Source of the DNA: Isoetes taiwanensis
Taxonomy: Eukaryota > Streptophyta > Lycopodiopsida > Isoetales > Isoetaceae
Direction: 5' to 3'
NCBI GenBank assembly: GCA_021234155.1
Contig: JAJEKV010000011.1
Span: 14,983,255-15,047,254, forward strand
DNA: 64,000 nt
Positions within the stretch are counted from its first letter, which is position 1; each line of letters opens with the position of its first letter. The notes beneath the pieces were generated by a model, which was not told where the DNA came from, did no database searches, and saw only the letters and a program-made list of their open reading frames with translations. Made by a program: the position numbers and the translations under genes. Shown in pieces: positions 9,404-58,743 of the stretch.

Positions 9404-9487
9404 CAAGGTGCTGTGCACGGAGGGTTGCCCTCCATGGCCGGAGGGTAAAGTGGCTTAAATCATACTTCAAAGTCATGTTTTTACAAT
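9404..9487 (-). repeat. 3' end module of the Helitron-like family
   Basis: The module of about 84 bp runs, on the - strand, from AAAACATGACTTTGAAGT through TTTAAGCC and CCCTCCGGCCATGGAGGG to the hairpin GGAGGGcaaCCCTCC and the end CAGCACCTTG. Close copies are at 21,849-21,935 and 58,666-58,743. Confidence 0.85.
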
Positions 9488-9551
9488 CAATCAAAATTTC
9501 TACCAACCAATCCAAACAGTTATTCCAAATGAAGAATGATATGCTCGTAGG

Positions 9552-10172
9552 ATGCAAACTAGTGTGACGTCACACAAATTTAAGGAAGTTTATATGGAGG
9601 TTAAGGCATATGTGGTAAAGGAAATGTGGAGGCTCGAACCTGACAAGGATGTTAAGAAAAGGTTCTATCTTGATGACATCAATAATTTGGACACATATGA
9701 AGAACAAGATTATCTGCTTTCTAATATCAGCAGAAAAAACCGCATATTGATTTCTCAATTGCGGTTATCATCACACCACTTACACATTGAAACAGGTAGG
9801 TGGAATGGTACACCTCGTAATGAGAGATTTTGTTTAGGATGTCTAGACCTTGAAATTGAAACAGAGAAGCAATGTTTTTTTGGAATGTTCAGCATACGAG
9901 AACATCAGAGATAGATATGGTATACAGGGTCAGACTTTAAAAGAACATTAGATATGCCAGCCCATAGATTGAGTACATATCTTAGGGATGTTTGGATGGA
10001 GCGTACAGATATCATAAGCTTGTTTAACCTCATGGAAGATTTTGATATTTCAGGCGCTTCGGATTGAGTGCCTATATATATTCCATGATTGTATTTTGTA
10101 TGTATCTGTTTGCCATAGAGGCCCGGGGGCCTAAAATGGCTTGATCAATTAAATTAAATTAAATTAAATTAA
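9552..10172 (+). pseudogene. LINE ORF2 C-terminus, 3' end and AATTA tail
   Basis: One frame of 120 codons (9,552-9,914) shows the C-terminal knuckle region shared with other LINEs here: LSSHHLHIETGRWNG, then ERFCLGCLDLEIE. After a frameshift the text AYENIRDRYG follows. The 3' part contains GAGGCCCGGGGGCCTAAAATGG and ends in AATTA repeats at about 10,147-10,172. It is a 5'-truncated insertion, opposite in strand to the surrounding Helitron-like element and abutting the DET1 remnant. Confidence 0.8.
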
Positions 10173-10207
10173 TAAAAAAACATAAAAGTACAAAGTTTGT
10201 GAGTTAC

Positions 10208-11460
10208 CTGGTTTAATCTTGAACCTCAGCACATTAGGACGTCTTGTAGAAGTGAACTTGATAGGATTCTCTATGCCAGTGATATGACACTCTAAAGAAT
10301 CTACAAGAACAAAAGTAGGCACAACTTGGTTAGCAAAGAACAGCTCAACAATCAATTTCCTAAAGACAAATATATTCCTTTAAACATGAATCTATGGTGC
10401 AATTATTTCCTTTGCTACTAGTTTCATTGTTGATGCCATACCTTTTCATCAGAATTAAAAAGTGAATGATCTAAAAACGCCAATGGGTTTTGTGATTGTG
10501 CATTAAATGATAATATTGCAAGTGTCCTAATAATAACCTGCAAATGAGCAGCATCAGTAACAAAGATGATACAAAGACCTCTGGATGAATTTGCCTGTGC
10601 ATGATGATATATCTTTGCAAGTCTCTGCTTTCATAGTTGGACCCGCAAAAAAACATTATTTGAATATGACGTTATATATCGCATACTGTTGGGGTACACA
10701 AAAAAAATTGCAGAAATTTTCATAAAAACCAAGAAACTCTTCGATGAATTACATCAATTACCAAAGATGCAACATGTTTTCAACCCTTAAAATAGTTGCT
10801 AAGAGATTCAAAGTCACAAACCTGCTCAAATTCTAGAATTTCTGTTGTCTCAAAGTTGTAAACCATGAAAATTAATGTCTGCATATCTGTATTGCGTGAC
10901 CCCTAATATAAGGAGAATATAAACTCAATGACATTCAAAAGATGTAAATCACCTCAGTACTTCCAAATCTTATCAGCAAATGATGTTGATCCAGAAACTG
11001 TACCTATAACAGATAATAAAAGCTCTATTTATTTTTTCTCCACATAAATGAGCAAAGTAAAACAAACAAAATACCTTTAGCATAATCAGGTCTGCATATT
11101 GCTGAAACTGATGATAAAAGCGCTTGAGTTGTTGAGCCTTCTCCAAGCCAAATATCAGTACTCGCAAGTGCCAATAAAACAACCACATAAACATTTGAAT
11201 ATGCTAAGTTGATGGGAATACCGAATAGGATCTTGTTCCTGATTCCATATGGATTGAAATTTAAAGGACAACAGACGTCGTTTAATGCCTCCAAGAAGCT
11301 TTCCTATCCCATCTGTTGAGATGATCTTCCTTCACTGGGCTCAACCGCAGTAGAAGCTCCGGCTATACTTTCTGTGCTTCGAGGTCTTATATGACCATTT
11401 TCTGATGCGTTTCCAAAATTTCTAGCACTTAAAACCGAATCTCTTTGTTGTAATGTCTCC
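10208..11460 (-). pseudogene. DET1: DET1 (de-etiolated 1) C-terminal half, decayed
   Basis: DET1 is a nuclear regulator of light signalling that works with DDB1 and COP10. On the - strand its C-terminal exons are recognisable in order: GIKRRLLSFKFQSIWNQE near 11,209-11,310; FYHQFQQYADLIMLK ending at 11,075 with a GT donor; VQFLDQHHLLIRFGSTE at 10,953-11,003; MVYNFETTEILEFEQ in 10,822-10,902; TLAILSFNAQSQNPLAFLD in 10,442-10,537; ENPIKFTSTRR with VLRFKIKPG in 10,208-10,300. Splice sites flank several exons. Decay is clear: the exon expected between 10,540 and 10,820 has in-frame stops beside the recognisable MRYITSYSNN, and a one-base shift lies near 11,310. The N-terminal half and the last exon are absent. 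It lies inside Helitron-like copy 1 on the same strand as the element, so it is read as a captured fragment. The assignment rests on remembered family sequence. Confidence 0.8.
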
Positions 11461-11658
11461 TTGTGCTCTCTTTGAAATATTTATATTTGAATGAGATGTT
11501 GTTTATTCCAAGCTGTGTTGAATTTGAGACAGAAATCATTAATTCTTAGTTAGAAGAATTTGTTGGGAACAAGAACTCCTCAACCACTATGCCAAAATTA
11601 GAAAATTATGGAATCAACTGCTCAGACTTCATAAAGAGATCTCAGTTAACTCCATTTA

Positions 11659-12186
11659 TTGGCTAATGTATCCCTATCTTCTAGTCGAATGTGGAAACCT
11701 AGAATTATAAACTTTTTGTTAAAGACTGGCAGATCAACTTTTGACACATTTCAACTATGCTTTCGTAAATGGAGCCCTTTGCTTCCCATCAATGAATTTG
11801 GTAAATTTTACATTGCTTCTAATATGAGTGAATTATACCCCATATATTGAAATGAAGATTGTTTTTCTGCCATTTTCAACTCTATTGGAACTTATATTAC
11901 CTCTGAATATTCTCCATATAAGCCTCCCAAATGTTTTATTCAGTTCGACATCTCTTTCTATTTACCACTCTTTCTCAAACGCTTTGCCAAGTCTGCCACA
12001 ATTCTGATGCCCTCCATTGGTTTTCAAACTTCGTATTGGGTCGTCTATAGACCATTTTGGTCTCCATGGACCCAAAAATCAGTTCAATTCTACATTCCCT
12101 ACATAGAAACAAAACGTTGTATACAACATGGAATCCAAACACGCTTACTCTCTTTCATTTGCAAAGCGGACTTACAAAGAACCTAA
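11659..12186 (+). pseudogene. Unidentified coding-like stretch in Helitron-like copy 1
   Basis: A single + frame stays open for about 175 codons with one internal TGA at 11,848-11,850. It begins with NVSLSSSRMWKPRIINFLL and passes through FIQFDISFYLPLFLKRF and FWSPWTQKSVQFYIPYIE. Composition is protein-like (aromatic, few low-complexity runs). A second open frame just upstream (ELLNHYAKIRKLWNQLL) may belong to it. It runs against the DET1 and PAM16 pieces. No family is recognised; it could be another captured fragment or part of a different transposon. Confidence 0.35.
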
Positions 12187-12568
12187 ATCTGCTTTGCCTA
12201 TTTCAAGCGTCAACACACCCCAATGGCATGTAAAACAAAGCATAACCTCATGACACACAATAATACAAGCAAGAGAAGACATAAGAGTTCAGTATTACAT
12301 GGCAAACATCTTTTGAGATCCTATTTGGGTACAGTTGCTTGGCACGTCCATGCACAAAACCCAATTTGGGGAATGCAATTACTACAATTTTAATTGGTGG
12401 TTGAACCAATTAAGTTTACTTGACCAACATTCAACAATTTAAGAACAGAATGATGGCCATGCTTATTTACCTTGCTGTAAACAGGATCGACTTCATTCTG
12501 TTTAGATTAAGATAACATTTAAAACAGCAGGACCAAATATAAGCAGCTTACAAGGCAATTGCCAGAGT

Positions 12569-12951
12569 TCACGCCTGCTCTCTTGTTGCAGATTCTAAAC
12601 ACTCCTTTGCTCTTTGCACTTTAGACTGCAAATAAAAGCTCCCTATCTTGCCATTTCTCTCAAAAAGATGATTGTATCTCTGACTTATTTGCAAGACGAA
12701 GACATGTATTGGGGTTGAGCACCAATGGACTGGTGATGATCTCTCTAGTCTAATAATCAGGAATTATTTGGGTCCAAACTTTTTGCGGACCTTGCTTAAG
12801 TAATGAATAGAACCTACCTCCAAGACTTGCTCCCAAGGTGTGTTTTCACTGACGCCTAAAATCAGCCTTGCCTCATGCTCTGTCATAGCTTTGCTACCTT
12901 TCTTTATCCCATTTTGTAAAGTCTCTTGAGCTACTCCTGTCTTATTAGCAT
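12569..12951 (-). pseudogene. PAM16: PAM16 (Tim16) C-terminal two exons
   Basis: PAM16 is the J-like partner of PAM18 in the presequence translocase motor on the matrix side of the mitochondrial inner membrane. Two exons on the - strand encode the J-like domain. The first, 12,818-12,951, carries ANKTGVAQETLQNGIKKGS and MTEHEARLILGVSENTPWE. The second, 12,569-12,679, carries RYNHLFERNGKIGSFYLQS and KVQRAKECLES, and ends in TGA. The splice sites (TGTAG acceptor, GTAGGT donor, GTCAG acceptor) and phases fit. As in the family, the usual J-protein HPD is replaced. The N-terminal exon with the membrane-associated segment is not found in or next to the element, so the piece is probably non-functional although its codons are intact. 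It lies inside Helitron-like copy 1, next to DET1 and on the same strand. Confidence 0.82.
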
Positions 12952-13286
12952 CTACAGCGAGAATTGTAAATGTCAGACACTTCATCATCTTAACAAACAT
13001 AATGAAGAAGCTTGCAGTATAACATGTTATGACATTTGTTAAACCCATACAACTGCTAAGTTTGTTATTGGTTTGCGCGACATGTTCTTTGCTTATTTCT
13101 TGATATTGCAAACACCACATCCTGTGATGTAAAGCCCCAAAATGGAGCAGCTTCATCTGTCCAAAATACTGATCACCAACCTGCAATGGGCATAAGAAGG
13201 TGATTCTTAGCATTTTGGAAGGTTTGCCAAGCTTGGAGTTGTTTAACAAACATCACATGTGGTTAGTTATAAATCAGCCTATGATG

Positions 13287-13393
13287 GGTTTTTAGCAGTC
13301 ATTGGCATATTCTGGGTATATATTGGCATATACCTAGCATATGCCACAAACCCACCTCAACAAGGGCTTGCCCCCTTAGGGGCAACCCAAAAA
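13287..13393 (-). repeat. 5' end module of the Helitron-like family
   Basis: On the - strand it reads TTTTTGGGTTGCCCCTAAGG, then AAGCCC, GTGGGTTTGTGGCATATG, TATATGCCAATATA and GACTGCTAAAAA. Copies are at 27,598-27,691, 54,545-54,652 and 58,587-58,665. The module contains its own TTGCCCC/GGGGCAA palindrome next to the terminus. Confidence 0.85.
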
Positions 13394-13420
13394 AAAGCAA
13401 CATTTCCATTACATTCTACA

Positions 13421-13754
13421 CTTCTAAATTAAAATCCCCCTTAAACCTCCTTTGGTTTGGGTGTACACTCACATGGCGAGTTGACGTAGAGCAGTGAGAG
13501 CCTCTAATATCGTAAATGTATAAAATCAATACGATCAGTACATGCCTCAAATCTTCTAATATTTCACAAACCCCATTATATAGTATATCAAAATTTGTAC
13601 AAGCATATCCCATAAGAGGATCGTTATCTACTATTTAGATCAAGGAATAACTTGCGAATATGCCTGTCCAATAGCTCTTGATGTCCAGAGTCACCCCCTA
13701 TGTGAATATGCACCCAAACCAAAGGGGGTTTAAGGGACATTTTAATTTGGAAGT
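13421..13754. mobile_element. MITE with TIRs of about 55 bp
   Basis: Left end: ACTTCTAAATTAAAAT, CCTTAAACC, TTTGGTTTGGGTGTA and CACATGG. Right end, reversed: ACTTCCAAATTAAAAT, CCTTAAACC, TTGGTTTGGGTGCA and CACATAGG. Total length is about 334 bp with no coding potential. A TA on each outer side could be the target duplication, but I cannot settle it. A single related end lies at 18,905-18,990. Confidence 0.8.
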
Positions 13755-13814
13755 ATGAAACTCTTGTGTGTCAAAATCGGTGAAGCTGATTGTCCTGAAG
13801 CTACGCAAAAATAA

Positions 13815-14225
13815 GAGTAGATGTGCAGGAAATACACAAAGCATAAGCTGAAATGTTAGATATACTTGATATAATTGAGCAGAATATAAGGTCGAGCTAA
13901 AAGCTCAAGATTGGCATTGAATCGGAATGGTTTGACAAGAAAGGGACTCCTCTATGTATATCTAGTCCAATTGTCAAGTTTGCACCACTTTAATAGATGA
14001 GATCGTGCCAAGTGTCACACATGCACGGTTTGGAACCTCCTGAAAATCATATACAATTGAGAAAGATGCAAGAGAATATCCACAATGAATATAGGTAGTT
14101 CAATTGGCAAAGGTATGTGGCTTGCTATTAGAAAGTTGCAAGTTCGAATCCAGACTTGTATAGAATATTTTTTTGCATCCGTGTGACGGCCATCTTTGTA
14201 TTATACTCGTATGGTTGTCACACTA
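13815..14225 (+). repeat. Dispersed repeat with tRNA-like boxes, copy 1
   Basis: This block of about 400 bp has a second copy split by Helitron-like copy 2 (21,780-21,848 joined to 27,692-28,090). Shared text includes ATACTTGATATAA, TGAGCAGAA, GATTGGCATTGAA, CCAAGTGTCACACATGCAC and the tRNA-like part. It is not recognised as a known family. Confidence 0.7.
14094..14160 (+). other. tRNA-like segment (A and B boxes), not a functional tRNA
   Basis: GGTAGTTCAATTGGCAAAGG resembles a tRNA A box region, and GCAAGTTCGAATCC, about 35 nt on, resembles a B box. The acceptor and anticodon stems do not pair properly. The repeat at 27,962-28,035 has the same part, with the A-box half doubled. It is probably a SINE head or a decayed tRNA. 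From 14,230 to 14,530 nothing else is seen. Confidence 0.45.
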
Positions 14226-14539
14226 TCCCCCTCTAAACGATGATGGCTTTCTCTTCAATGATGAGTAGGCATAATATTATTTCCTTAGGATCAAACAACC
14301 ACCAATCATCATGAATGAATCATTGTAAAGATCTTTGTCTAATGTGAGATCTAGACATATAGCAAGGTCTAATGTAGGGGCAAGATTTGGAACATAAGCA
14401 GAGAAGTCGCATTTAATTAAAGTGGGTCAAATCTCGAATTTTGGGACTCAGACTGAAAATGGGACTCAGACTGAAGAAAAAAATTTGGAGTTGAATGCTT
14501 GAATAGAATTACACATCATACACTAATAGAAATTCACAA

Positions 14540-14835
14540 CTAGTTCACCGGGAGAAGAGTGGAAAGGAAATGCCCATGGAGGGGTGGCTAGCCAAGGGGC
14601 AAAGGGGCACAAGGAGGGGCAAAGGGGGAGGGGGTGGGCAAAAGGCAAATCGGATGGCAAGGGAGGGGCAAAGGGGCACATGGAGGGGGAAGGATAATAA
14701 GGAGGAGGGGCAAACGAGATAATAAGGAGGAGGGGCAAAGGGGGAGGGAGATGGCAAAGGGGATGACAATGGAAGGAGGAAAGTCAAGAGGGGATGGCAA
14801 AGAGGAAGATGGCAAGGGGGGGGGGGAAGGGGAGA
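14540..14835 (+). repeat. Purine-rich GGGGCAAAGGG tract
   Basis: About 300 bp on the + strand is almost all purine, built of loose repeats of GGAGGGGCAAAGGGG and AAGGAGGAGGGGCAAA, ending in a G run near 14,818-14,825. The Pro/Leu/Ser-rich open frames on the - strand are by-products. AT-rich (AATA)n sequence follows to 14,960, then a TTTC repeat and the hairpin TTCTCGCC/GGCGAGAA at 14,986-15,008. Confidence 0.8.
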
Positions 14836-15008
14836 GGGATGAATCCAAAAGTAAGGATTATAAATAATAAAATAAATAAATATAATAAATACAATATAAT
14901 AAGTAATAAAATTAAAATACAATAAATAATTTAATAAATACAAATAAATAAAATTAATTAGATATTTTTTTTTTCTTTCTTTCTTTCTCGCCCCGCGTGG
15001 CGAGAACT

Positions 15009-16780: not shown

Positions 16781-16793
16781 AGGGGAAAAGGCG

Positions 16794-16815
16794 GGGGGGG
16801 GGGGGGGGGGGGGGG
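16794..16815 (+). repeat. Poly-G run of about 22 nt
   Basis: An unbroken G run follows GGGGAAAAGGC and precedes TTCTATTTTTTGG. Such runs are prone to length error. The surroundings (16,600-16,960) hold several near-repeats of TTTTAGAACTATGGTGTTTT and GAAAATATATAGGATA. Confidence 0.9.
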
Positions 16816-17760: not shown

Positions 17761-17844
17761 TTTTCAAAAATGGCCCTAAGAACTGTGTTTTATTTTATTT
17801 TTTTAGCATGTAGCATCACTTGACTAACTTGATTTTGTCTTTTG

Positions 17845-21848: not shown

Positions 21849-21935
21849 CAAGGTGCTGCGCATGGAGGGTTGCCCTCCATGGCCGGAGGGTGAAGGGGCT
21901 TAAATAATAGTTCGAAGTCATGTTTTGATAATCAA
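21849..21935 (-). repeat. 3' end module of the Helitron-like family
   Basis: It is a close copy of the module at 9,404-9,487: GACTTCGAACTATTATTTAA, CCCTCCGGCCATGGAGGG, hairpin and CAGCACCTTG. It starts the element at its 3' end on the - strand. From 21,940 to 22,870 no gene is seen. Confidence 0.85.
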
Positions 21936-23141
21936 TTCAAAGCCATAACCCTGAACATTTGGAACAAAATCTATTTGTTTACATGATCGTGGTTGTTAAA
22001 TAAGATGCCTCTAAGGGGAGAGGGAGATTGTGTAGCTGATAAGAAAAAAATGGAAGGCATTAAAGACAATGAAATATATGCAAGTATTGTTCACATAAAA
22101 CCAAAGATTAAGTCTCGTCATTTATAGCATGCTTCCATCAAAGAACAAGGTCCTTGTATCTTTCAAGTAATCTCGATAAGGAAAGGGTGGAAAAGAAAAA
22201 TGTATCTATCGATCCACTTATGCCAACCCTATCCTTCACAGGTGGATTGCAAGTCCTCTCTTACATTGACCCTATATTCTAAGTTTAAGCCATTCGCCTT
22301 TGAAATCCTGCGCCAGACTGCGAGCCATTACTGGCAGAATTTGCCACCGCGTTTGTTGAGTTCTTCATGATCTTGATGCCCAGGTGAAGAAAAATGGTAA
22401 AGCTGACATCATCTCCTCGATGTAAAGAATATGGTACGAAACTTCCATGTTAGGTCTCAACCAGATGCACTGCTCCATATAACTAGGGTGAATTTTTGCA
22501 TGATGTTGACTCCAATATAGCAAAGGTCATGCTAGTTGTATCATTATTCTACACTGCTCTTCCACTGTTAAATTTTATTTTTTGTACATGGAAACGTGCA
22601 AGTGATTGACCATGTATGCGTTGGTTGTCGATCATTTTCCATATGCCAAAGTGAGTTGCAGATATGTAAGCAGAACATTTGCTATGAGAAACCTTAAAGC
22701 GTATTTTCCTTAAAGTCTTAGTTGGCATCTAGAAAGGATAAACTATCTTGATTCTAAAATTGTAATCCCCAAACATTAATAAATTCTTATCAATGTGCTA
22801 CATTAAAGGTATCTAGCAAAATAAACCCCCATTCAAAAACCCTTAAAGAGCATGTCAAACAAAAGATTGCCCTCATGCAAGAGGAAGGAAGGAAGGAATT
22901 TTTAACGTCCGCGGAACCCAATCGGGTTATGGGACCCAATACAAAAGAGAGGGCAAAAGCCCAGACTGAAACTCGGGGACGAAGCCCCGTGACCAAACCA
23001 AAAAGGCCGAAGCCAAAATCAGACGTGGGGGCTGGCCCCAGTACACAAAACTCGGGGGACTATGCCCCATAGCAAATCACAATACTAGAATGAAACAAAA
23101 CAAAAGGGCATAAGCCCAAGCAGATCGCGGAATCAAGTCAA

Positions 23142-24170
23142 CTACCCAGACACTGCCCATGGATCAAGTGGCCAGTGATCCCGAATGATAGCCTGGCCGC
23201 CTCTATACACAGCCCACTTCCGGTGCAGACGAGCCTCGCGGACTCGACATAACTCATCCTTCCGCCGGCAAAGCTGTGCTGGGGTAAGGTCTTCCTGGAC
23301 GGAGAAGGAGGTCCCTTGCAAATGATTGCCATGGCGGAGGATGTGCAGCCGGGACAAAGCATCCCTGAAACTGACCAGCAAATGACGGGGGCGATCAGGC
23401 CGTGCTGCTCCAACTCGACGAGCCGATAGAATGCCATCTGCCTGTAAGTGCATCACCTCTGCAAAGAAACGGGTCGCCTCAGCTGCCCCATGAGTGTTGC
23501 TTGCTTCCTCCAAACCCACAATGCGTAGGTTCAGGGCTAACGGGTGCGCTGTGGCCTGGTCAAGCTTCGAAAGCGGGACCTGTGCAGTGGGCAAACAATC
23601 CTCGGATGACAGCCGTGTGGGCATAGGTGTGGTATCATCGGTCTGGGACGTAGCATCCACATGCTCAGAAGGTGCGGGTGGAACACTGCCGTGCTGCGGT
23701 GAATCAGCTCCTGCCGACTGTAGCAGCATCTCTAGAAGCTGGACCCAGCTTCCCAAGGGCAACTGAGCCGATGTTCCTGTGAGTGTGACTGTCGATTGGA
23801 TCGTGCGGATCCCAACCAACAAATCCGAAGGCAAACAATGGATCTGAGCATCGATCCTGGTCAAGTCTGCAGCCAAAGATACATCTGGAGCGGATTGCGT
23901 GTCTGGTGGTGTGCCTGGGTCTGCCAGTATAGGACGCTGAGGCCCAAATGATGGGGCTGCCTGAAGATATGGCGCAATCGCGGGGTCATAGGGCCTATTC
24001 AAGACTGGCTCCGGCAGCCTAACGAGATTCTTTTCTTTACGGGTCTCCCTGGCCATGCGCTTGATCTGACGAACCATTGAGAGCAACAAGAGGATGGGTG
24101 AGCAGAACTGCTTATGAGAACAGAAGGGAGCTCCAAGCTTCAAGGAATCGAAATTGTAGGATACAGCCAC
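23142..24170 (-). CDS. LINE ORF1 protein (L1-type, RRM-like)
   Basis: An intact frame of up to 342 codons. An internal Met (MVRQIKRMARETRKEK) may be the real start, giving about 311 residues with a basic N-terminus. The middle is Pro/Ser/Thr-rich. The C-terminal half has the L1 ORF1 RNA-binding fold: LNLRIVGLEEASNTHG, EATRFFAEVMHLQ, AARPDRPRHLLVSFRD and FSVQEDLTPAQLCRRK. Such proteins coat LINE RNA and act as nucleic-acid chaperones. No coiled coil is obvious. No stop or shift interrupts it although the element lacks ORF2, so it is either young or was kept. Confidence 0.75.
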   Translation of the reverse strand: MAVSYNFDSLKLGAPFCSHKQFCSPILLLLSMVRQIKRMARETRKEKNLVRLPEPVLNRPYDPAIAPYLQAAPSFGPQRPILADPGTPPDTQSAPDVSLAADLTRIDAQIHCLPSDLLVGIRTIQSTVTLTGTSAQLPLGSWVQLLEMLLQSAGADSPQHGSVPPAPSEHVDATSQTDDTTPMPTRLSSEDCLPTAQVPLSKLDQATAHPLALNLRIVGLEEASNTHGAAEATRFFAEVMHLQADGILSARRVGAARPDRPRHLLVSFRDALSRLHILRHGNHLQGTSFSVQEDLTPAQLCRRKDELCRVREARLHRKWAVYRGGQAIIRDHWPLDPWAVSG

Positions 24171-24338
24171 AAAACAGAAGGACCTCCAAGGGCGGACACA
24201 AAGAAAGTAGAGCCAATAGCTGGGCCGGATTCAAGGGCTTCAAGTAATCGAAATTGTGGCTACAGCCCCAAAACAGAAGGACCTCCAAGGGCGGATACAA
24301 AGAAAGCAGAACCAATAGCTAGGCCAGATTCAAAGGGA
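24125..24338. repeat. Two tandem 5' UTR units, about 105 bp each
   Basis: The units share GGAATCGAAATTGTAG/GTAATCGAAATTGTGG, ACAGAAGGACCTCCAAGGGC, GGA(C/T)ACAAAGAAAG and CAATAGCT(G/A)GGCC(G/A)GATTCAA. They sit directly upstream of LINE ORF1, where tandem promoter monomers are found in other LINEs. Confidence 0.8.
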
Positions 24339-24741
24339 GGCTGTGAGTGACAAAGGGGGCCAGAGGTGGGCTGAATCGACTGCCAAGCCAAACCAAACCA
24401 AGTGGAAAGATGTGCTACCATACCAGAAAAACTGCAAGAACCGACAGGATGCAGTAACCGAGCTTGTGGCAGAACTGATCTGATGCCAATTCCGGTGGAG
24501 CAGAGCCAAAGGCAGAGAGCAAATAGAAGGAGATGGCTATGCCCAGAGTAGCCGGATGGTGCCGAACTGGGCCCCAAGCTTGTCCAAACCCTTGCCAACG
24601 GCAGATGCTTGGCTGGAATCGGAGTTCCGGAGCTACGCTTCTCCTCTTCTGCTGCTTGTAAGGTTGGCGCCGGTGGCGCCTAAGGGAGCCAGGTGAACTT
24701 AAAACAGTTTGTACCATCACTGAAACAAATAATTGAACGTC

Positions 24742-25346
24742 CATGCTTAACATAGCATGGCAGTACACTTCTCTTTTTGCATCTTTGTTTAAATATATCA
24801 AGTGCCTCTGCGAGTTTCCGATATGCATTTCCATATGCGAAGAGGCTACATACTCACCTAAGAGAAAAATGACCTCTGCGTTTTTCAAACTTTTCTCCAT
24901 CTTTATCCTGCAACTTTCTTCCTCTTACCTGATCTCTATATTGGGCTCTTCAAAACATAATTTTAATCCGGAAAGCGAAAAACAGAAAGCATTTAATTCA
25001 TGGATCTAAAGCATGCATCATGGTTTGCATAACTCTTCTTTTCTATTTATAATTACGCAAGAAGGTAGAAATAGATGATTGCAATATATGCTGTGATTGT
25101 ACAACATGCAAAGTATATATCAATCAGAAGCTATTGCTGATGAAAAATCAAATCCATATTAGGATAAGTAAAGTAAACAGCATAAAAGCAAGGAAAGATA
25201 TGTTGCAAGCAAATACCTTTGTGAAAATGATCGTCTAAATGCAACTTTGTATAGCTACAGTTAGGATTGCATTTGCATGCCATAATTTCTTCAAAGCAGG
25301 AAAACCACTCCAGATCATTTTTTAGAAATAGCACGAATGGCTGCAT
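24742..25346 (-). pseudogene. Captured exons, possibly PPR-like, unidentified gene
   Basis: Two exon-like blocks lie on the - strand. The block at about 25,215-25,346 begins ATG and encodes MQPFVLFLKNDLEWFSCFEE and MACKCNPNCSYTKLHLDDHF, closing at a GTATTTGC donor. The block at 24,742-24,860 follows a CTCTTAG acceptor region and in one frame encodes LFAYGNAYRKLAEALDIFKQ, then RCKKRSV, which resembles a pentatricopeptide repeat (YGK.GKLAEALDIF.QM). They lie inside Helitron-like copy 2, on the element strand, so capture is likely. The PPR reading rests on one repeat only. Confidence 0.35.
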
Positions 25347-25517
25347 TTATGAAAGGTTCTCGTCCTCTCTTCGCATGAATTAACATGATGCTCCTGTAAC
25401 TGGTCATAGCATAAACACATAAGATACTTTAGTGGAATACTTAAGCAAGTCCATGTACAAAAAAGGGAAGTCATGTAACTACATACCACTAAGAACTGTA
25501 TTTAAGAGTGGCATGCG

Positions 25518-25760
25518 AGGTTTTGGATCTGCTGACTCACCTCTGCCCCCGGGCGCCTATCTGAGGTGCCGGGAATTCATGTGTATATGTATATTTGTAC
25601 AGCTGTCAGCAGGCTTGTTGCTGCGACGGTTTTTCCCTCCTAAGGGGGGGTTTTTTAATCCGGGTAGCAACGGGCTTGCTGCACCCGTGTAATTTGGGTC
25701 CCATAGGCCGATTGGCCTCCGCGGACGATAAAAGAACCTTCCTTCCTTCCTTCCTTCCTA
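25518..25760 (+). mobile_element. LINE 3' end with TTCC tail
   Basis: It is nearly identical to 31,962-32,208: CTGACTCACCTCTGCCCCCG, GGTGCCGGGAATTCATGTG, GCTTGTTGCTGCGACGG, GGTTTTTTAATCC, GGGTCCCATAGGCCGATTGG, CTCCGCGGACGATAAAAGAA, then (CCTT)n. The high identity between the two copies suggests recent insertions of one family. The last ORF2 codons are included. Confidence 0.9.
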
Positions 25761-26719
25761 AGATAAAAATAAAGAAATAAATAAGATAAGCATGATTGTT
25801 CTGCAATTTTGTGGCAGATATGAACCAATTTCTCAAGATTCATGCGTGAAGAAATGGAGTAGCCAACATCCTGATGTATTTTTCTGAAAATATTTAATAG
25901 ACTTGAGGCAGCTGGATGTATTGATGGAAACCTGGTGTTGGATCAAACCACAGATGCAACCTTTCTTCCCGGCCTCTTGCTACGTTGCCATTGCCATATA
26001 CAAACATGTATACAAACATGCTGTAAACAAACATGTTGTTCATTATATATGAAGGGATCAAGTTGGACATACAACTGTTCGATGTTGTGAGCTGGCTTAT
26101 GATGATTTATGAAGTAAAAAAGCGTGATAACACAATCACAAATAGCAATATACGCCATGATCTGTAACTTGACTTGATAATTCCAGTTGATGTACAGTAT
26201 TTTGTAGATGCAATGGACTGCCAACAGCAACCACCCATTCCCCAGGCCTGAGATTCTGAGAAGACCCTAACTCCACCTTTGGCAGTGGTGATATTTAGAC
26301 TTTACTCTGAGCCTAATAGAAAAGGAGCAGAGGATGTGAGCTGTTGTGAGCAGAGAATGTGAACATAAAGGAGCAGAGAATGAACTTTTGTGGAAATGCA
26401 CTAACAATTAGAAGGCAAACAATACTCGTAGCAGAGAGTATTCTGGCAATAATTATTAACAATGATTAACAATATACATTAAGTGTTTTCATAGGGCTTT
26501 ACCACAGAGACGAACCAGCCTGATGCAGTTACTTGCTAGAGAGCAAACAATTAGAAATGATCTAAAGAAATAGTCCTTTGCTCCAAAGTCTGACTGCAAA
26601 CCTACATTGAGAAATTACTAAATGAAAACATAGCATGGAGCAAATAAATCCTTCCATGTTTTACCTTAATATAAAAGCAAACACCCAAATCGAAAAGATG
26701 AGGTGGCCCAACTGCAGAA

Positions 26720-27046
26720 TCAACAAAATTGCATGTAAGGCTCAAAATCCGAAGATAAAATGATTGAAAAAAAACTGGCTATAATACTTGCAGCAAGCTT
26801 CCTTTGAACACCGTATCCCTTGAACAATGTTTCTTTAAAGATGCCACAATAACCTAAGCAAGGAAAGCTCTCAATGAAAGGATAAAAAATTCCAAAAGCT
26901 TCAAAAACATAGAGGCCTGATTTGCAAACCTGCATCAGGAATCGAATACCATGCAATGAAAAGTGCAGTATTAGAATGGAAGAGCAGCAGATGAATCTGC
27001 CCCACAAGAAAAAGTTGAATGCCATCGTCATCGGTACTGCCTTCAA
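26720..27046 (-). other. Hydrophobic 108-codon open frame
   Basis: The frame encodes MTMAFNFFLWGRFICCSSIL and later FPCLGYCGIFKETLFKGYG. It lies inside Helitron-like copy 2 on the element strand. It may hold a captured exon, but no splice site or family supports this. The rest of 25,760-27,600 shows nothing I can name. Confidence 0.2.
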
Positions 27047-27597
27047 AAAGGAACTCTAGCGGAAATATCATCTCAGACGGTGAGCGTTTCAGAAAAAGCT
27101 ATCGTGATGGCCAAAAAAATGCCAAAAATCAGCCCATGAACCATTTAAAAAACAATGCCTGGACAATCATATCTTGGTGAAACCTTCAAACGCTCATAAC
27201 CTGCTCTGGAATGATCCTCCCAGAAAGAAAAAGAAGAAAAGAAATGGTCAAGCTGGAAAAAATGGGAAAAAGACACCACTGAATTTGAGCTTAGGAGCTA
27301 CCTGGTTTTAGACAGGGCAGATGCAGCTAATGCATTACTTTAAATGCATCATGCAAGAAGATCCTTCACAAGAAAACGTCCTTCAAAAACCTGCCCCGAA
27401 TATGAGAAACAAGCAAACACAGAACATTACAAATTATGAACACGAACCTGTGTGACAAACCGAAAGTCTGGGTTTGCTTGCTATGTTTCATCGAATCGAT
27501 TGATCAGAGTAGGGTTTGCCGGTTAGACGGTTTTAGAGCGGCTGCCTGGCAACAGGGGCAACCGACAGTTTATAGGCTACTGGGAGTTTGGAGCAGT

Positions 27598-27691
27598 TTT
27601 TCGGATGTTCTTTGCATATACCGACATATACCAGGAATATGCCAAAAACCCATATAAACAAGGGATTGCCCCCCTAGGGGCAACCCAAAAA
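27598..27691 (-). repeat. 5' end module of the Helitron-like family
   Basis: On the - strand it reads TTTTTGGGTTGCCCCTAGGG, CAATCCC, TATGGGTTTTTGGCATATTC and GGTATATGTCGGTATATGC. It matches the modules at 13,287-13,393 and 54,545-54,652. Confidence 0.85.
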
Positions 27692-51230: not shown

Positions 51231-51236
51231 ATAATT

Positions 51237-51262: not shown

Positions 51263-51503
51263 ACATTAATGTCCCTTGTGCCGCGAGGCCCCTGGACTTG
51301 TGTAGCATGGGCGAGCTCCCTAAAAGGGCGCTACTAGCGCATCACGCTGTAATGATGTAGCCTTTTCTGAAGGCTGACTTTTTTCTTTTATTACCAGCAT
51401 CCCGCTTTACCTCGGTTTCGTGGCCGTGCAGTGATGCGTCGTTATCAATCAGCTTTTAACTGAACAATTTGTATGGGGCTTTTATGACCCGTTTTTGTAT
51501 GGA

Positions 51504-54500
51504 TCATATTACGAGCCCTCTTTCACTGTGTACTTCTCTGTGTGTGGTCATCATTTTCTGGATCGCATCTGCCAAGTCTCGAAGTGATTCTGTTATTGTC
51601 ATCAGAATGTAGACCGGTTCCCCCCATCTTATATTTCTGTATTTGTCTCTGATGTCTCCGTAGATCGGGCAATCGTTGACCATGTGATTCTCATCCTCTA
51701 CTCTTCCATCATCACAGATTCTGCATATCCTGTCCTCCTTGTCTATCCCTCTCCACCTGTCTTTTTCGATTCTTAGGTCATGACTTTCCATCCTGAATCT
51801 AGCCAGAATGTCTCTTCTGTTTTTCCCCAGGATGTTATCCCGATACATCTGGTGTCCTATTTGCTGACCTGGGTTGAAAACTTGCATGAGCCAAGCTGTC
51901 TTGGGTCCTGTGTGTTTTTGCAGCCACGCTCTTGTGGCTCGGTCTGCCCACTCCTCATCCCACTGCCTTCCTTTATTAGGTCGCTCAGGTTTAATCCCAT
52001 CTCTCTGGTCCAGTTTGCCACATCTTTAAACCATCCACTGCCTATGAGGATGTGTGATTTTGCTGATTCGCTAATTGCAATACTAGACAATTTCCCTTGA
52101 ATGTCTCCTGCATTGTCCCTGATCAAGTACCTTATGGTTCTCTCCCATGCTCTCACCTCCATTGGTTTTTGCCCTGTTTCGAGGATCATGATTGTTAGTG
52201 GCGTATTTGTCCTTACTTTAAATTCCTGTCTGTCCTACTTTTCCCATTTTTCTGTCTGTTAGGCCTGGCCCCCAGGCTTCTGCCCCATATAGCTGAGTGG
52301 TGGCTACCACTGCGCTGTATAAGTAGCATTTGATGTCCCAGTCTATTATTCTGCTTCTGTTGCAGAAATTCTTCATGTTGAAGTAACTCCCTGTAGCTGA
52401 TTGAAACCTAGCGTCTGCTCCTTTGGCCCATTTCCCTGTACCATGTGCATCGTACCCTAGATATCTGTATTCCATTGCTTCCTCTATATCTTTTTCCTTA
52501 TATCTGAAGGGTCTATGCCTGTTCTTATGACCAAAGATGACTATCTTAGTTTTTGCTAGATTTACAGTCAGCCCTGTTTCTTCACAGAATTGCTCTAGAA
52601 TTTTTAGCAGTCTGTGCATCCCTTTGTTCTTTGTGGCCATCATACTTAGATCATCAGCATATAGCATAATTGGTACCTTTGTGTCTTCTAGCGTGGGGGC
52701 GTATTCGTCCCCTTGCTGTTCTGGTATATATCCCTGCAAAGCATCTATGTATATTCCAAACAGAGTTGGGGATAACGGGCAGCCCTGTTTTACGCCTGTG
52801 TCACAGATTATTGGCTGTCCTTCCTGTTCCATCTTAGCATATACCTTATGATATAATCTTGCAATCGACCCTACCATATTTATCGGGGCTTGCATGTCCA
52901 TCAATCTTTGTAATAGCTTCTCCCTTGGGACCGTGTCGAAGGCTTTCCTGAAGTCTACAAAGCAACAGATGATCTTCCTCCCCTGTGCTTTGTTCTATTC
53001 TAATCGGAGAGTCACTAGGTGATCGGTGGTTGAGTGTTCCGGCCTGAATCCTGCTTGTCCTTGTGCTCTCATGTTTCCTTCTTCTGCCCATTTCTTTAAT
53101 TTGTTATCCAGTACTTTTCCAAACCATTTTGCGAAAATGGAGCTCACCATTATCGTCCTATAATTCCCTGGATCCTGCCTGCTTCCTGCCTTGTGTAGAG
53201 GTATGACTCTATTGTATGTCCATCTGTCTGGAAGCCCTGTGTGTATGATGCCATTGAAAATGTCTGTGACCTGTCTGCTAATTTCTGGCTCGACACATTT
53301 CAGCAATTCCACAGTCAGGCCATATAGATCCGGAGCTTTATGGTTGGCCATCTTGTTTGGTGCTATCATTACCTCCAGCATATTGAAGCATGGTTTGTCT
53401 GAATCCTGTAACATTGGTATTGGTACTGGAGGAGCCCCTGTCTTATACAATTTATCCAGGTAATTCTCCCATCATGTTGTTCCAATACCGTCTTGTTCAT
53501 TCCTTGTTCTCACATTATTGTCCCCCCTCTTCTGTTTGAGTCCCCTCCAAAATCTTCTTGGCTGTTTCTTCAGCAATTTTCCCATATACCATTGGTGTTG
53601 TAGCAGATTATTGTACCGTTTCTTCTTTAGTAATCTTATGTATGCTGCTTTTTCTTTCAGGTATGTCTCCTTTCCCCTCTGTCCTTTTGTTTTCTTTTTT
53701 TGCTCCCTACACTCGTCATCATACCATACTGATGCTCTGAATGCCCTGTTCTTCCCGATCTTGTTCCTTTTGCCAAACACCTCTGTTGCTGCTCTTACCA
53801 TGATGTCATTGAGGGTATTTCCATTGTCATTTGCGTTGTGTTTCCCCCATTCCCATTTTCCCATTTCCTCCCTGACCCTTTGTGCGAATGTATCTGTGTA
53901 TTTCTCTTGGAATCGGATCCTTATTCTGTCTTTCTTTTCCTCGTTTCTCACTGTACTATTAGTCTGTGTCGTCTCATCCGTACTGAGTGTTATCTTGATC
54001 GGTCTGTGGCTTTCCCTTTTCCCAGTTGGCCATTCCTGCATCTTTAGATCTTCTATTCTTTCTACTGCTTGTTCATTCAAGATTACATAATCCACTATGC
54101 TCTTACCATGGGCATTCTGACTCGTAAAGTCCCCCGATCCCTTCCATTTCTTTACTCCATTAGCTATAATCATCCCTGTTGTTGTACAGACTTCCAACAG
54201 TAGTTCGCCCCTGGCGTTGACCTCTGCCTTATCCTCTGTATCTCTCTGCCATTCTTGTGTTCTTGCCTTGTACGTTATCTGCCCATCCTTTTCATCCGTG
54301 TTTGTGCTTTGTGCCTGTTCTTGCCTAGTTCTGGCATTTAAGTCCCCTACTAGTATCATTGGTCCCTGTTCTTTCCACTTCATCATATTTTCCCCTAGGT
54401 CCAGCAATTCTAGCTTTGTCACTGTTTGGTGGATAATATGTAATTATCAGGAATACATCTTGTTTGTTTTTCAATTGGACATTCAACACCATATGTCTTT

Positions 54501-54544
54501 TATTGATATCTGAATGTAACATACATGCGCTGTTAACTATACTA
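51504..54544 (-). pseudogene. LINE ORF2: endonuclease C-part, RT, zinc knuckle
   Basis: Frames follow one another with shifts near 54,420, 53,460, 53,000-52,900, 52,220 and 51,870. Endonuclease text includes MILVGDLNARTRQEQAQS, SIVDYVILNEQAVER and ESHRPIKITLSTDE. The RT includes NHKAPDLYGLTVELLKC, PDRWTYNRVIPLHKAGSRQD, NYRTIMVSSIFAKWFGKVL, QGQAGFRPEHSTTDHLVTL, GVKQGCPLSPTLFGIYIDAL and motif C IMLYADDLSMMATKN. The end has RFRMESHDLRIEKDRWRG and the knuckle DRICRICDDGRVEDENHM, NDCPIYGDIRDKYRN. All expected domains are present; only the shifts disable it. Reverse transcription of its own mRNA at the nicked target would have been its role. Confidence 0.9.
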
Positions 54545-54652
54545 TTTTTGGGTTGCCCCTAGGGGGGCAAACCCTCGTTTATGTGGGTATGTGGGCATAT
54601 CCAGGTATATGCCAGCATATGCCTAGCATATACTGGTGACTGCTAAAAACTG
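54545..54652 (+). repeat. 5' end module of the Helitron-like family
   Basis: TTTTTGGGTTGCCCCTAGGG, GGCAAACCCTCG, ATGTGGGTATGTGGGCATAT, CAGGTATATGCCAGCATATG and GACTGCTAAAAA. It matches the modules at 13,287-13,393 and 27,598-27,691 in inverted orientation and 58,587-58,665 in the same orientation. Confidence 0.85.
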
Positions 54653-55649
54653 GCTGGTGCCTGTAAGTGCTCGGTCATCCAGCCCATTATCCTCTGGTTT
54701 TTGCCCGTTCATCGCCATAGCCACTCTTTGGAGTTTCTTTCCGGTAGTATGAAGCAACGACAGCAATTTTCAAGTGCAGATCGGCCATTCCTAGGCTCTT
54801 ACCAACAGTTAGAGTATAGCTGCGCTATGGATTGAGCATGGCGTGCCAAATTCAATATCTGTTTAGGGATTGCCCGCTTGCTTGAAGCTTGTCTGTACGT
54901 TCTATGCTCATTTTAACTCAGGTTTTATAGCAAAGGTGCATTACTGACTTTTTGTTGTTGTTACAAAGGTGTGTTTTTGCATGCAGTTCCTTCAGCATTA
55001 GGCATAAAAAGCTATAGTTACATCTAGATTTAGTTCAGAATGGCATATTGTAGCAAACATTGGAATTCAGGGTTGAACTTCATGCACGAAAAGGCTATGT
55101 TGCTTATGATAATAATTCTAATGCAGGTTATTGTCACAGAGCAAGCCAGCTCAGGTTTGGACAATCATTCATCCTCTTATTCTGTCTTTTCAGCTGAAAT
55201 CCTAGTATAGCAATTCAAAAGGTCTGTTCTTTTCATCAGGTTTATCATATGATTCAACATTCTATATACGGGTAAGAATTTAACATGTTAAAATAACACA
55301 TGCTTCTAAATAATGGATAGGTATAGTGTTTGCCAGGTCCTGTAGAAGCGCTGTATAATGGAGGAATTATTTCAAACCCTGGATTTTAGCATGGTCTTGA
55401 AGGATGGAGCCAGCACAATGACTGTGACATACAGCTGGGATCTGTATATAACCTAGGCCAATATTGTGGCTGTTAACTAGAGGTCTTCTCATACAGAATT
55501 AAATAATGATGGTTTTTTTAGGATTTGAATTAAGTTCATTGAACAGACAAGCTAGCCACTTGCTTGTTTCACATGTCTCTCATCTATTCAACGTTAAGAG
55601 GAATAATTGCCTTGATTGCACACTGATAATTTGGCTGGTGCATTTCCAG

Positions 55650-56891
55650 GTAACAAAAGTGAGTGTGCTGATATCTGAGAAGCCTTGGAGAGGAATTAAT
55701 GTCAACGGCTCGCCACATGATCATGGTTTGTATCTGGTCCTGTTTGCTATTTCTCAATAGCAGGCGCAGTTCTGTTGTTGAATATTGTTTCCTGCCAGGA
55801 TTCAAGCTAGGGCAAGAGAAGCATACAGCCGAAGTAATCATTAGCCGGGGTGGACATGAGAAGATCACGTCAGGCATAAAGGGACTGAGTCTATTAAAGA
55901 CAACAAAGGTACTTGATGAGATAAAGAACATTTGATCATACGTGTCTCAAATATCACTCACATTTAGACGAATAAAACCTAATACTTTCTGCTGTCAAAT
56001 GCACCGTGGATGTTTTTTGGGGGTTTGGGGAGAGGGGGAGGACCTTTTATGTTCATTAGACTTCAAAGTTTAACATTCTGTTCTATTATCACATGCATTT
56101 AGACGGATATCTTGGTTGCAAAGACACCAACATGAACGATAAAGCTTTCAACAAGCTTGTTCTAAGATGGTGTTGTGTTTAGTCAGGATTTGTGGCGTTT
56201 GTTCGGGATATAAGTATACATTGCTTCCTGAAGTTGACGAACGCATGCTGGCATTCGAAATTAATGCATATACATGCGCCTCTTTAATGAGGAGGATCTT
56301 TTGAGTTCATCATGCATCTTCATGTAGAGGATAGTACTTTAGGCGTAGAGGAATGCATGTGCTTTAAATGGGTAATTAGCATTTTTATCCATAGTCTACG
56401 TCATATCTGCAGCTTTTCTACAAAGCCATGTTCATACAACAAGTATCATGATGACGTGGTTGGTGCACTTATAAATACCTTCTTTGGGCATCCATCTACT
56501 GGAGTCTACAGTCCATCTGTGCAGAATACACTTTATCTAATGGCTGCAGAAGTTCTTAAGAGGTGAGCAAGTTTTGGGGACTTGTTTTACGTTAAGATAT
56601 TATGATTGTTAATCATTTTAATAAAAATCTGTATTGTCTAGATTTCTGAAGATAAATTCTGTCAAACTCAATATGCCCAACCTTCATTTTGTACCAGTTA
56701 ATATGCCCTCTGTCGGTGCAGAGGTAAGTTGTGGTAAAATAAGTGTGAAGCTTGATTTGTTATTGTTACATGCCTATTAAAGTTTTCTTTTGTGATTGCA
56801 GTTTAATCATGATATATATTTGCCAATGGATGAAACCCATGGCACAATTGAAGCATGTTTAACAAGAAAAGGCATTTCGTCAAAGTTGTAG
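55650..56891 (+). pseudogene. UOX: Uricase (urate oxidase) C-terminal two thirds, captured and decayed
   Basis: Urate oxidase turns urate into 5-hydroxyisourate in peroxisomes. Exons: 55,650-55,725 (VTKVSVLISEKPWRGINVNG); 55,799-55,908 (FKLGQEKHTAEVIISRGGHE, GIKGLSLLKTTK); 56,183 to about 56,270 (SGFVAFVRD, then KYTLLPEVDERMLAFEINAY); about 56,390-56,562 (INTFFGHPSTGVYSPSVQNT, LYLMAAEVLK); 56,642-56,723 (LNMPNLHFVPVNMPSVG); 56,802-56,891 (IYLPMDETHGTIEACLTR). It ends in SKL, a canonical peroxisomal PTS1. GT-AG sites fit. Family positions such as the Phe/Arg urate-pocket region (FVRDKYT) and the Gln in SVQNT are kept. Lesions: a 2-bp insertion in GATATAAG at 56,208-56,213 shifts the frame; the N-terminal 100 or so residues with the catalytic Thr (TDTMKN region) are missing; the exon before INTFF is degraded. 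It is therefore a fragment inside Helitron-like copy 3. Confidence 0.88.
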
Positions 56892-56894
56892 CAG

Positions 56895-58585
56895 TAAGCA
56901 ATTGTTACCCTCAAACTATTGTATAGACAGTTGTACTCACTAGACCTGGAATGTGCTTGCTGCAGTTTGTTGCAATAACAAATAAAGTTATGCTTGGTCC
57001 TCTTTCCATTGTAATTTCAGTCTATGCTAATAGAGGATCACTGTATTCTTGAGAGAAAATAAGTATAGATCCCAGCTAAGGAACGAAACAAGGTATTTTC
57101 TTCACCTTGTTAAATAGCATGAGCAAAATACAAACTTGGAGATATTAGGGGTTATTCATTGCATTATTAAGTATTGATTATAAGTTAAAAAAATTTAGAC
57201 GGAACTTCACAATATTTCTGCTGAAAAATGTCTCTAGTGAAAAAATATTCTTAGTGAACTCGCTTAGTTTCTAGGTGTTATTGGGTCAAGAAATTGCATT
57301 TATTTAACTTCATCCTAGAATGCCAACAGATAAGCTGATCACATTTTCTACCCTAAACAGTAGAAAGGAAGAAATGCAGATTGAGAAATGACTTGCTGCA
57401 TATCTAGGAACGAGTTACTGCATGTGAAGAAGCAAGTTGCCTTGAGGATTGACCACGATCCCTCTTCTTGGTTGTATAGGTGGACATTTCTTTGGCTTCA
57501 GATGGCATTCTTCCAGTTAAATAGGCAGGACTGCATTCTCATAGAGTATCGAAGCATCCAAGATTTGATCTTTGAGTTTCTTATTTTTTTGATATATGCA
57601 ACCTCAACTTGGGATGTTTGAACAGAGAGATCTAGTGCAATGATTCACGTGGCGACGAAATTGTTTATCTTTATTTTCTAAGTATTATTATTTGTATAAA
57701 CACCGCATCCATCTATAGGTAAGATTCAAACCAAGCAATCAATAGGTACAATTGCAACCAAGCAATCCTTTTGCATTGTTTGGGTTTTTTGTCGCCCATT
57801 GAGGTCTCGATATTAAATACTTATGAAGAAGAATCTTTGCTCATCATTTTCGAAACAATTTGCTAGTGGTAATTGTTTGTTTCATAAGCAACTCTTTTGA
57901 TCTATATTTCATAATTGAAATTACAACTGTGAAGCAACTTGTTATCTACTCATTATTCCATATAGTGTGAACTTTCATGTAGCTCGAAGTGCACTATTTA
58001 CATTAGTTATTACTTACTGCTTTCAACATGTTGTTAAGGCTATGCATAATTGGACAAGAGCTCAAGAAAAGTTATTTTCTACTTTGTTTTTTGAAAAACA
58101 AAAGCTTCATTTCATGTCTAGTTACATTTGATTATTTTCTTAGCATATAAGCTGTAGACATTTAAACATTAAGTAGCTCGAGATTTTGATATTGCAATAG
58201 AATTTTACATGGCATATGCAAATTTGCAAATTTTTCTCATGTGAAGATATGCAATAAAATTAAACTGCATGTTATATACTTTCAAGGTCTTTCAATTGTG
58301 GCAAAATTATATCCCTCTTGAGGTTGTATTGCAATGGTATCATGAATAACGGATTCTACTAGGACCTCATCAAGGATTCCCGTGCAAGACTTGAGTTCCT
58401 GAAAGGATGGCTAGAAACAAGGGAAATATATAAATTGAACTTGAGCTTCAAATACAAATCTAGCAGATTATCGTCTATCTTGGATTGCTGGCTAATTTTC
58501 ATGTTAAAACATCCTTTGTACCGTTATTTTATTAGCTCCAGTTGCCCTCATGGAAATAGCATTCCACTGATATGTTTGAGTCCAG
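56895..58585. other. Rest of Helitron-like cargo, no gene recognised
   Basis: This is probably uricase 3' flank and older AT-rich sequence. The frame 57,388-57,621 (RIDHDPSSWLYRWTFLWLQM) is not supported by splice sites or a known family. The 54,653-55,640 stretch upstream of the first uricase exon also shows no N-terminal uricase exon. Confidence 0.35.
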
Positions 58586-58586
58586 T

Positions 58587-58743
58587 TTTTTGGGTTGCCC
58601 TAAGGGGAAAACCCTCATCCATGTGGGTTTGTGGCATATTCCAAGTATATGTCAGTATATGCTCGAAAACATGACTTTGAAGTGTGATTTAAGCCATTTC
58701 ACTCTCGGGTCACGGAGGGCAACCCTCCGTGCGCAGCACCTTG
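58587..58743 (+). mobile_element. Minimal 157-bp Helitron-like copy
   Basis: The 5' module (TTTTTGGGTTGCCCTAAGGG, CATCCATGTGGGTTTGTGGC, AGTATATGTCAGTATATGC) is followed at once by the 3' module (AACATGACTTTGAAGTGTGA, TTTAAGCC, hairpin, CAGCACCTTG). It shows the minimum sequence the family needs at its ends. It shares its 3' end with copy 3. Confidence 0.75.

Follow-up and report, generated by a model that had tools for sequence, protein, structure and literature searches.

A 64,000-nucleotide stretch of the quillwort Isoetes taiwanensis genome (assembly GCA_021234155.1, contig JAJEKV010000011.1, positions 14,983,255 to 15,047,254; hereafter the window, numbered from its first base) holds three elements, E1 to E3, that are very probably non-autonomous Helentrons, members of the Helitron2/Helentron branch moved in trans by the Rep/helicase proteins of long relatives. 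The elements share their ends, relatives that are coding though broken carry the same kind of ends, empty sites were found, and the donor gene of one cargo was located. The three elements are as follows:

9404-13396, minus strand: E1, a non-autonomous Helentron-type element of 3,993 bp, delimited by its modules and ends.
21849-27691, minus strand: E2, a non-autonomous Helentron-type element of 5,843 bp, delimited by its modules and ends.
54545-58743, plus strand: E3, a non-autonomous Helentron-type element of 4,199 bp, inserted in a repeat resembling a long interspersed nuclear element (LINE).

Terminal modules were searched in the window with mismatch tolerance, and chance was gauged by 100 shuffles. 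The 5′ module, TTTTTGGGTTGCCC, occurred without mismatch at four sites (13380 and 27678 on the minus strand, 54545 and 58587 on the plus strand); no shuffle reached four matches at up to two mismatches. The 3′ module, GGAGGGCAACCCTCC, was exact at 9419 and 21864 on the minus strand and at 58714 on the plus strand, and 0/100 shuffles reached the seven matches observed at up to three mismatches. All three 3′ modules ran on to CACCTTG|TTT. The initial annotation, made from the sequence alone, had counted three long elements and one of 157 bp. Its modules were real, but there were four 5′ modules and three 3′ modules, and the 157-bp unit is better read as part of E3 (see below).

The elements run from TTTTTGGG to CACCTTG; the 5′ TC and 3′ CTRR of canonical Helitrons were absent. 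E1 starts with a run of eight T and ends in CACCTTG|TTTTTTTT. A short asymmetric inverted repeat, GGGTTGCCC at the 5′ end and GGGCAACCC at the 3′ end, has an inverted core of 9 bp; the two ends are otherwise different sequences, and no long terminal inverted repeats were present in elements with these ends. Folded as single strands, the E3 5′ end gave z = -3.8, and the 3′ ends of E3 and E2 gave z = -2.3 and -2.4, respectively. The E1 3′ end folded weakly (z = -0.9), an alternative stem being favoured there. The hairpins of E3 were placed as follows:

About 54550-54574, plus strand: 5′ hairpin of E3, from folding.
58711-58731, plus strand: 3′ hairpin of E3, CACGGAGGGcaaCCCTCCGTG, 12 nt before the 3′ end; it contains GGGCAACCC, the inverted copy of the 5′ GGGTTGCCC.

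A palindromic 5′ repeat with an inverted 3′ partner and a 3′ hairpin agrees with Helentrons, except that the 3′ placement differs and that the hairpin is weak for E1; asymmetric inverted repeats with hairpins at both ends agree with Helitron2, the 3′ end of E1 again being weak. These ends had been described as unusual and assigned to a divergent Helitron group or another rolling-circle type. They are not of a new kind: Helitron2 and Helentrons are already described as having a hairpin at each end, a short inverted repeat that is asymmetric, and insertion in T-rich sites (relevant passages of PMC5148889 and PMC4067079).

The genome searched comprised 1,658,258,908 bases in 1,110 contigs. The 5′ 14-mer was present in 8,551 exact copies, against 10 for the reversed control; at up to two mismatches the 3′ 30-mer had 5,115 copies, against 0 for controls. 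Pairing was assessed from 100 listed 5′ ends and 65 of 100 listed 3′ matches (those on the same contigs), which makes the fractions lower bounds: a same-strand 3′ end lay within 20 kb downstream of 30/100 of the 5′ ends, compared with 3/100 for the other strand and 1/100 upstream. The modules thus do pair up genome-wide, a check that the initial annotation had asked for. Twenty stretches of 10 kb, partly overlapping, were also fetched. Eleven held a same-strand 3′ module by score, which in L019 and in L037 lay past a second 5′ end. Inspection paired two more, L035 and L032, the latter having a damaged end; in L034 a 3′ module was on the other strand, and the remaining loci held none. The last 2.9 kb of L022 read N (2,856 of 10,000 bases). 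A second type of 5′ end, TTTTTGGGTTGCCCGAAGGG or similar, with the same first 14 bases, was seen at L026, L029, L034 and L045 and in elB, a coding element described below. At L020:4764-4769 (C1:66222-66227), two elements stood head to tail as CACCTTG-TTTA-TTTTTGGG, with only TTTA before the second T5-GGG.

Fourteen elements were compared with one another (E1-E3, nine from the fetched loci, and the coding elements elA and elB), matches longer than 70 nt being considered. All except elB had about 70-190 bp in common at the 5′ end, and most also had 80-160 bp in common at the 3′ end. The twelve non-coding elements had common sequence near their ends only, their interiors consisting of differing cargo. 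The remaining matches joined L020 to elA, linked the Rep genes of elA and elB, or were pieces shorter than 100 nt just inside the ends.

Empty sites were sought by comparing joined flanks with the genome, using 12 constructs in a first round and ten, two of them new, in a second (14 in all), with the 40 best matches taken in each round. The joint was spanned in the first round by 39/40 matches for E3 and 1/40 for L027, and in the second by 37/40 for elA and 3/40 for elB. The sites for E3 were supplied by uninterrupted copies of its LINE-like host repeat (window 51507-54443, minus strand). Seven empty sites were read. At L027 the empty site was CATGC-TTTTTT-ATAT and the filled one CATGC-TTTTT-GGG...CACCTTG-TTT-ATAT; the six for E3 had TTCTTT in five cases and TTCCTT in one, and a tandem copy in E2's own flank read TTCTTT. 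Filled sites read TTTTT-GGG...CACCTTG-TTT. Any target duplication was limited to at most two T, which are unassignable (sequence read for two elements, match lengths only for two); insertion in a TT or T-rich site without target duplication, found for the four elements with empty sites, is as in Helentrons. The run of T before GGG was exactly five in 71 of 100 copies listed and at least five in 93, and all 29 readable 3′ flanks began with TT. The sixth base before GGG was A in 28, C in 30, T in 25 and G in 17 of 100 copies listed; because this base is near background, A|T is not the rule. The initial proposal of an A|T host without duplication was therefore correct as to duplication, beyond at most those two T, and unsupported as to the site, which is a T-tract (TTTTTT, TTCTTT or TTCCTT in the empty sites read). 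As judged from sequence, E2 and E3 would have lost the C of the site or exchanged it for T, unless T was already present in the host copies, and in TTCTTT sites the insertion step may turn the third base into T. Alternatively, the host copy of E3 may have become TTTTTT through mutation, in which case the idea of a C-to-T change would fall.

DNA transposons with terminal inverted repeats, or Pack-MULE-like elements, that have captured genes would also explain why elements with short ends contain intron-bearing gene fragments. However, the two ends differ apart from their 9-bp inverted core, relatives encode Rep and helicase, and the empty-site matches (sequence for two elements, lengths for two) leave no room for a duplication of 8-11 bp; the chance of such an origin is negligible. 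The rolling-circle type put forward initially held up: long terminal inverted repeats are absent, any target duplication is no longer than two T where it could be read, and the modules pair up.

The Helentron type was found by way of DUF6570, a domain that we take to be tied to the Helentron branch. The genome search for this domain (E up to 0.1) returned 29 matches of 37 candidates, two of which were read:

C908 21,171,934 to 21,161,561, minus strand: elA, a coding relative of 10,374 bp, with its Rep gene on the opposite strand to the element.
C1035 4,731,977 to 4,744,287: elB, a coding relative of 12,311 bp, with its Rep gene on the same strand as the element.

Both have T5-GGGTTGCCC at the 5′ end and CACCTTG at the 3′ end. 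Both contain DUF6570 and Helitron_like_N (E = 9.8e-19 in elA and 7.5e-15 in elB), and in both Rep is followed by a PIF1-type helicase (4.8e-9 and 9e-8, respectively), as in Helentrons. Their Rep motif is RGSPHDH, with the residue between G and P that marks a Helentron (S) and not that of a Helitron (L), by the account of this position in PMC4067079. The two proteins are 48% identical over 680 residues. Frames resembling RPA, a type of gene carried by Helentrons, gave weak matches (DUF223, E = 0.041 and 0.15). L020 is a deletion derivative of elA, matching it at 91% over 314 bp at the 3′ end and 87% over 184 bp at the 5′ end, with two internal pieces. Two DUF6570 matches at C930:7640953 and 7643045 lie 2.1 kb apart on one strand, perhaps in a tandem coding element.

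Matches to Helitron Rep were scored for 150 of 1,813 candidates in the genome, one of them in an open frame of 2,964 amino acids. The two that were read proved to be Helitron1-type:

C224:469615-470130: L039, a Helitron1-type Rep match.
C1018:33465824-33466357: L040, a Helitron1-type Rep match.

Their Rep proteins carry RGLPH and match the Helitron Helraiser at 2.6e-121 (L039) and 2.4e-80 (L040); the match of Helraiser to elA had E = 0.86 only, and for elB there was none at E values up to 1. Helitron1 proteins were considered as partners of the present ends and rejected, there being no full module in the 5-7 kb read upstream of L039 and L040. That the family is instead a divergent group of canonical Helitrons (Helitron1) with changed ends is highly improbable. 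It would account for the 3′ hairpin and for gene capture as in maize Helitrons, and Helitron-type Rep matches are many in this genome; however, 5′ TC, 3′ CTRR and the A|T site are all missing, the proteins lying between these ends carry the Helentron S and hardly match Helraiser or fail to match it, and the two Helitron1-type loci have no full module in the interval given.

The structure of E3, and with it the origin of one cargo, could be read piece by piece:

54545-54838, plus strand: 5′ terminal module of E3, of which 54690-54838 occurs at 97-99% identity in 15 other loci listed.
54836-55443, plus strand: fragment A of E3, a separate segment found whole or in part at other loci (68-96%).
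55442-58457, plus strand: captured 3′ part of a uricase gene, with introns and 3′ flank, from the donor match.
58549-58743, plus strand: 3′ cassette of E3, the last 157 bp of which (58587-58743) start like a 5′ module and end in the 3′ module.

The uricase part matched its profile at 2.7e-9. Its donor lies at C1018:22178938-22182024 and is 93% identical to E3 overall, with identities of 97% (156/161) and 98% (122/125) at the junctions. The captured sequence begins in an intron, and the first two exons are present at the donor only (exons read by eye). Beyond the capture point, at a distance of 32 bp, the donor locus has a further Helentron 5′ end that points the same way. Stretches of 2.1-3.5 kb from the E3 interior, extending past the donor match, recur at four other loci with 91-98% identity; the composite has therefore itself spread. 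We regard the 157-bp unit as a 3′ cassette and not a separate insertion, because the 38 bp upstream of it recur at L016 and because the tail of L027 is the same as that of E3 without the first 19 nt of the unit; only these cases were read. It is rather unlikely that the unit is a mini-element in its own right, nested in the end of E3. Such a reading would be in keeping with the presence of both modules, with the 170 pairs of 5′ 14-mer and hairpin found 100-130 nt apart in the genome (0 in controls), and with the equal span of 143 nt in 82 of the 100 cassette-type pairs listed, but not with the sequences shared by E3, L016 and L027.

Under the Helentron reading, Rep would nick at the 5′ hairpin module, the helicase would peel one strand off as far as the 3′ hairpin, and the peeled strand would insert in a T-tract of about TTYTTT. 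Where a 3′ terminator was missed, copying would continue through neighbouring host DNA to the next terminator, for example the 157-bp cassette of E3, and pieces of host genes would thereby become cargo. We infer rolling-circle movement by Rep and helicase in trans because of the proteins, the ends and the empty sites, and copying past a missed 3′ end because of the structure of E3.

Several observations weigh against this reading. Ten of the 14 joined-flank constructs had no empty site among the 40 best matches, and the cassette at which the putative read-through in E3 would have stopped was not found at the donor within the 1 kb read. Both elA and elB are broken by frameshifts and stops, and no intact copy occurred among those read; the search for an autonomous copy suggested at the outset thus yielded coding relatives with both Rep and helicase domains, in broken form. 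Only end motifs are common to elB and the other elements; the Rep gene apart, no match exceeded 70 nt. In mites the 3′ inverted repeat is 38-60 bp in, whereas here it is within the hairpin, and circular or single-strand intermediates are not visible in an assembly. Finally, a C-terminal endonuclease, which is among the traits that define strict-sense Helentrons, is supported weakly. After the helicase of elB there is an endonuclease-like stretch with a weak match to Exo_endo_phos (E = 0.096) and with QE, DFN and SDH motifs seen by eye across frames; this piece had no match in the PDB, and its predicted fold was uninformative (mean predicted local distance difference test score 32.3, no residue above 50). 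A block comprising the helicase end and the endonuclease-like sequence was found 3.5-6.2 kb downstream, on the same strand, at 18 of the 29 DUF6570 places, with open frames of up to 566 amino acids among the matches to it, and no such block was present within 10 kb at the other 11, elA included. Helitron2 in the narrow sense, without an endonuclease, is an unlikely alternative to a Helentron but one to be reckoned with: asymmetric inverted repeats, hairpins at both ends and a T-rich site fit its description in the passages of PMC5148889 concerned, as do elA and the other places that lack the endonuclease-like block, whereas the 18 places with the block, and their open frames, do not.

As well as sharing their ends, these probable Helentrons have gathered pieces of host genes. 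Capture is confirmed for Pam16, DET1 and uricase, the last with its donor, and a DEG-like protease was probably captured too, which bears out the earlier count of fragments of at least three host genes with introns. The pieces inside E1 and E2 are:

12572-12763, minus strand: captured Pam16 exon in E1, element-sense (PF03656, 5e-9, above Pfam's cut-off).
About 12815-12952, minus strand: likely preceding Pam16 exon, by eye only, with no Pfam hit.
10167-11331, minus strand: captured DET1 exons in E1, in order and element-sense (PF09737).
9566-10174, minus strand: separate repeat inside E1 with an AATTT-repeat tail, at 95-98% identity at 12 other loci listed.
26139-26294, minus strand: fragment of a DEG/HtrA-like protease in E2, a probable capture, element-sense (Trypsin_2, E = 0.0067, below Pfam's cut-off).
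23145-24230, minus strand: open frame of 362 amino acids inside E2 that resembles the first open reading frame of a LINE, by eye.

The DET1 exons cover positions 150-372 of the PF09737 profile over four frames; E ranged from 2e-4 to 0.06, and none of the four reached Pfam's own cut-off. E1 is modular as E3 is: at C24 and C28 its DET1 segment recurs within short elements, each about 1.24 kb long. Repeats of the GGAAGG type near 22.9 and 25.7 kb bound the LINE-like frame inside E2 (by eye).

The window was scanned with Pfam profiles in 125 frames of at least 45 amino acids (67 sense and 58 antisense with respect to the elements). The 58 antisense frames gave nothing better than ArsD at 0.01, and the Pam16, DET1, Trypsin_2, uricase and glycosyl hydrolase 16 matches therefore fall in the 67 sense frames; the last of these (3.6e-4) came from one of the 125 frames, which was not located, and was absent from the antisense ones. 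Eight further elements, scanned in 149 frames of at least 62 amino acids (77 of them sense; E up to 0.01), matched GcpE, NUBPL/ParA, PPR, LRR, kinase, MFS_5 and chromodomain families, and the 77 sense frames alone returned all seven with the same numbers. These are counts of frames and not of independent captures: the PPR, LRR and kinase matches may stem from few genes, and the chromodomain match may belong to a retrotransposon. Only a weak SLATT match and DUF6570, a remnant of the Rep gene, were confined to antisense frames. A weak TPR match in elA (0.0029) was element-sense, and host-gene matches at E below 0.01 were found in element-sense frames only.

Nine of 12 elements had more copies of TTYTTT inside them on the element-sense strand than on the other, one was tied and two were reversed (177 versus 112 in total; two-sided Wilcoxon p = 0.013 across elements); in the stretch of the donor that was read the counts were 5 and 1. 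T exceeded A on the element-sense strand in 12/12 elements of each of two overlapping sets. Tentatively, and as a possibility more than an expectation, we suggest that T-tract targeting sets the direction of captured genes in this plant: T-tracts being commoner on the sense strand of plant genes, Helentrons would enter genes chiefly in the sense direction, run-on copying would then take up exons in sense, and the outcome would be direction-biased exon shuffling. The strand bias supports the premise and not the mechanism, because gene cargo lying in sense for any reason would show it.

The family is like the Helentrons and their non-autonomous HINE/DINE-1 partners treated in the pertinent sections of PMC4067079 in the S of the Rep motif, the PIF1 helicase and a palindromic repeat that starts a few bases in from the 5′ end, and like Helentrons as treated there in the 3′ hairpin, the T-rich site with flanking T and no clear target change, the high-copy non-autonomous partners, and Rep/helicase genes that sometimes lie on the opposite strand (as in elA). 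Unlike the Helentrons of those sections, it has a land plant as host, a 3′ inverted repeat inside the hairpin, 12-14 nt from the end, and non-coding elements full of unrelated cargo, pieces of host genes included; the captures given there are few (histone pieces in Culex and one gene piece in Phytophthora). It shares asymmetric terminal inverted repeats, and also hairpins at one end or at both, with Helitron2 of Chlamydomonas and FoHeli of Fusarium, and a T-rich site with Helitron2, as far as the corresponding parts of PMC5148889 describe these; it differs from Helitron2 as described there in its end sequences and in the endonuclease block, lacking there and seemingly present here. Helentrons are known mainly from animals and fungi.

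Maize Helitrons that capture genes have canonical Helitron ends and the A|T site, and in these respects differ from the quillwort family. They are alike in the stepwise capture of gene pieces and in elements with more than one terminus, on the evidence of the passages concerned in PMC3288121; the A|T rule of canonical Helitrons is stated generally in a passage of PMC4067079. In most plant genomes a survey of 2014 identified no Helentrons, and it allowed that the few hits might be contamination (PMC4067079, section 10). No report of a land-plant Helentron was recognised in literature covered mostly at the level of titles and abstracts, with passages of PMC4683698 (those on Helentrons concern Drosophila), PMC3288121, PMC2575219 and PMC13317346. 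The word Helitron is absent from the main texts of two Isoetes genome papers.

This family is thus a known kind of element in an unexpected host; as far as these searches show, the host and the scale of capture are new. Helentron-type Rep genes and thousands of partners occur beside ordinary Helitrons in one vascular plant genome, so that two machineries can be compared there. The family also offers a donor gene whose capture points can be read, and a possible explanation, open to test, of why captured genes face as they do. An annotation that seeks TC...CTRR ends would miss it.

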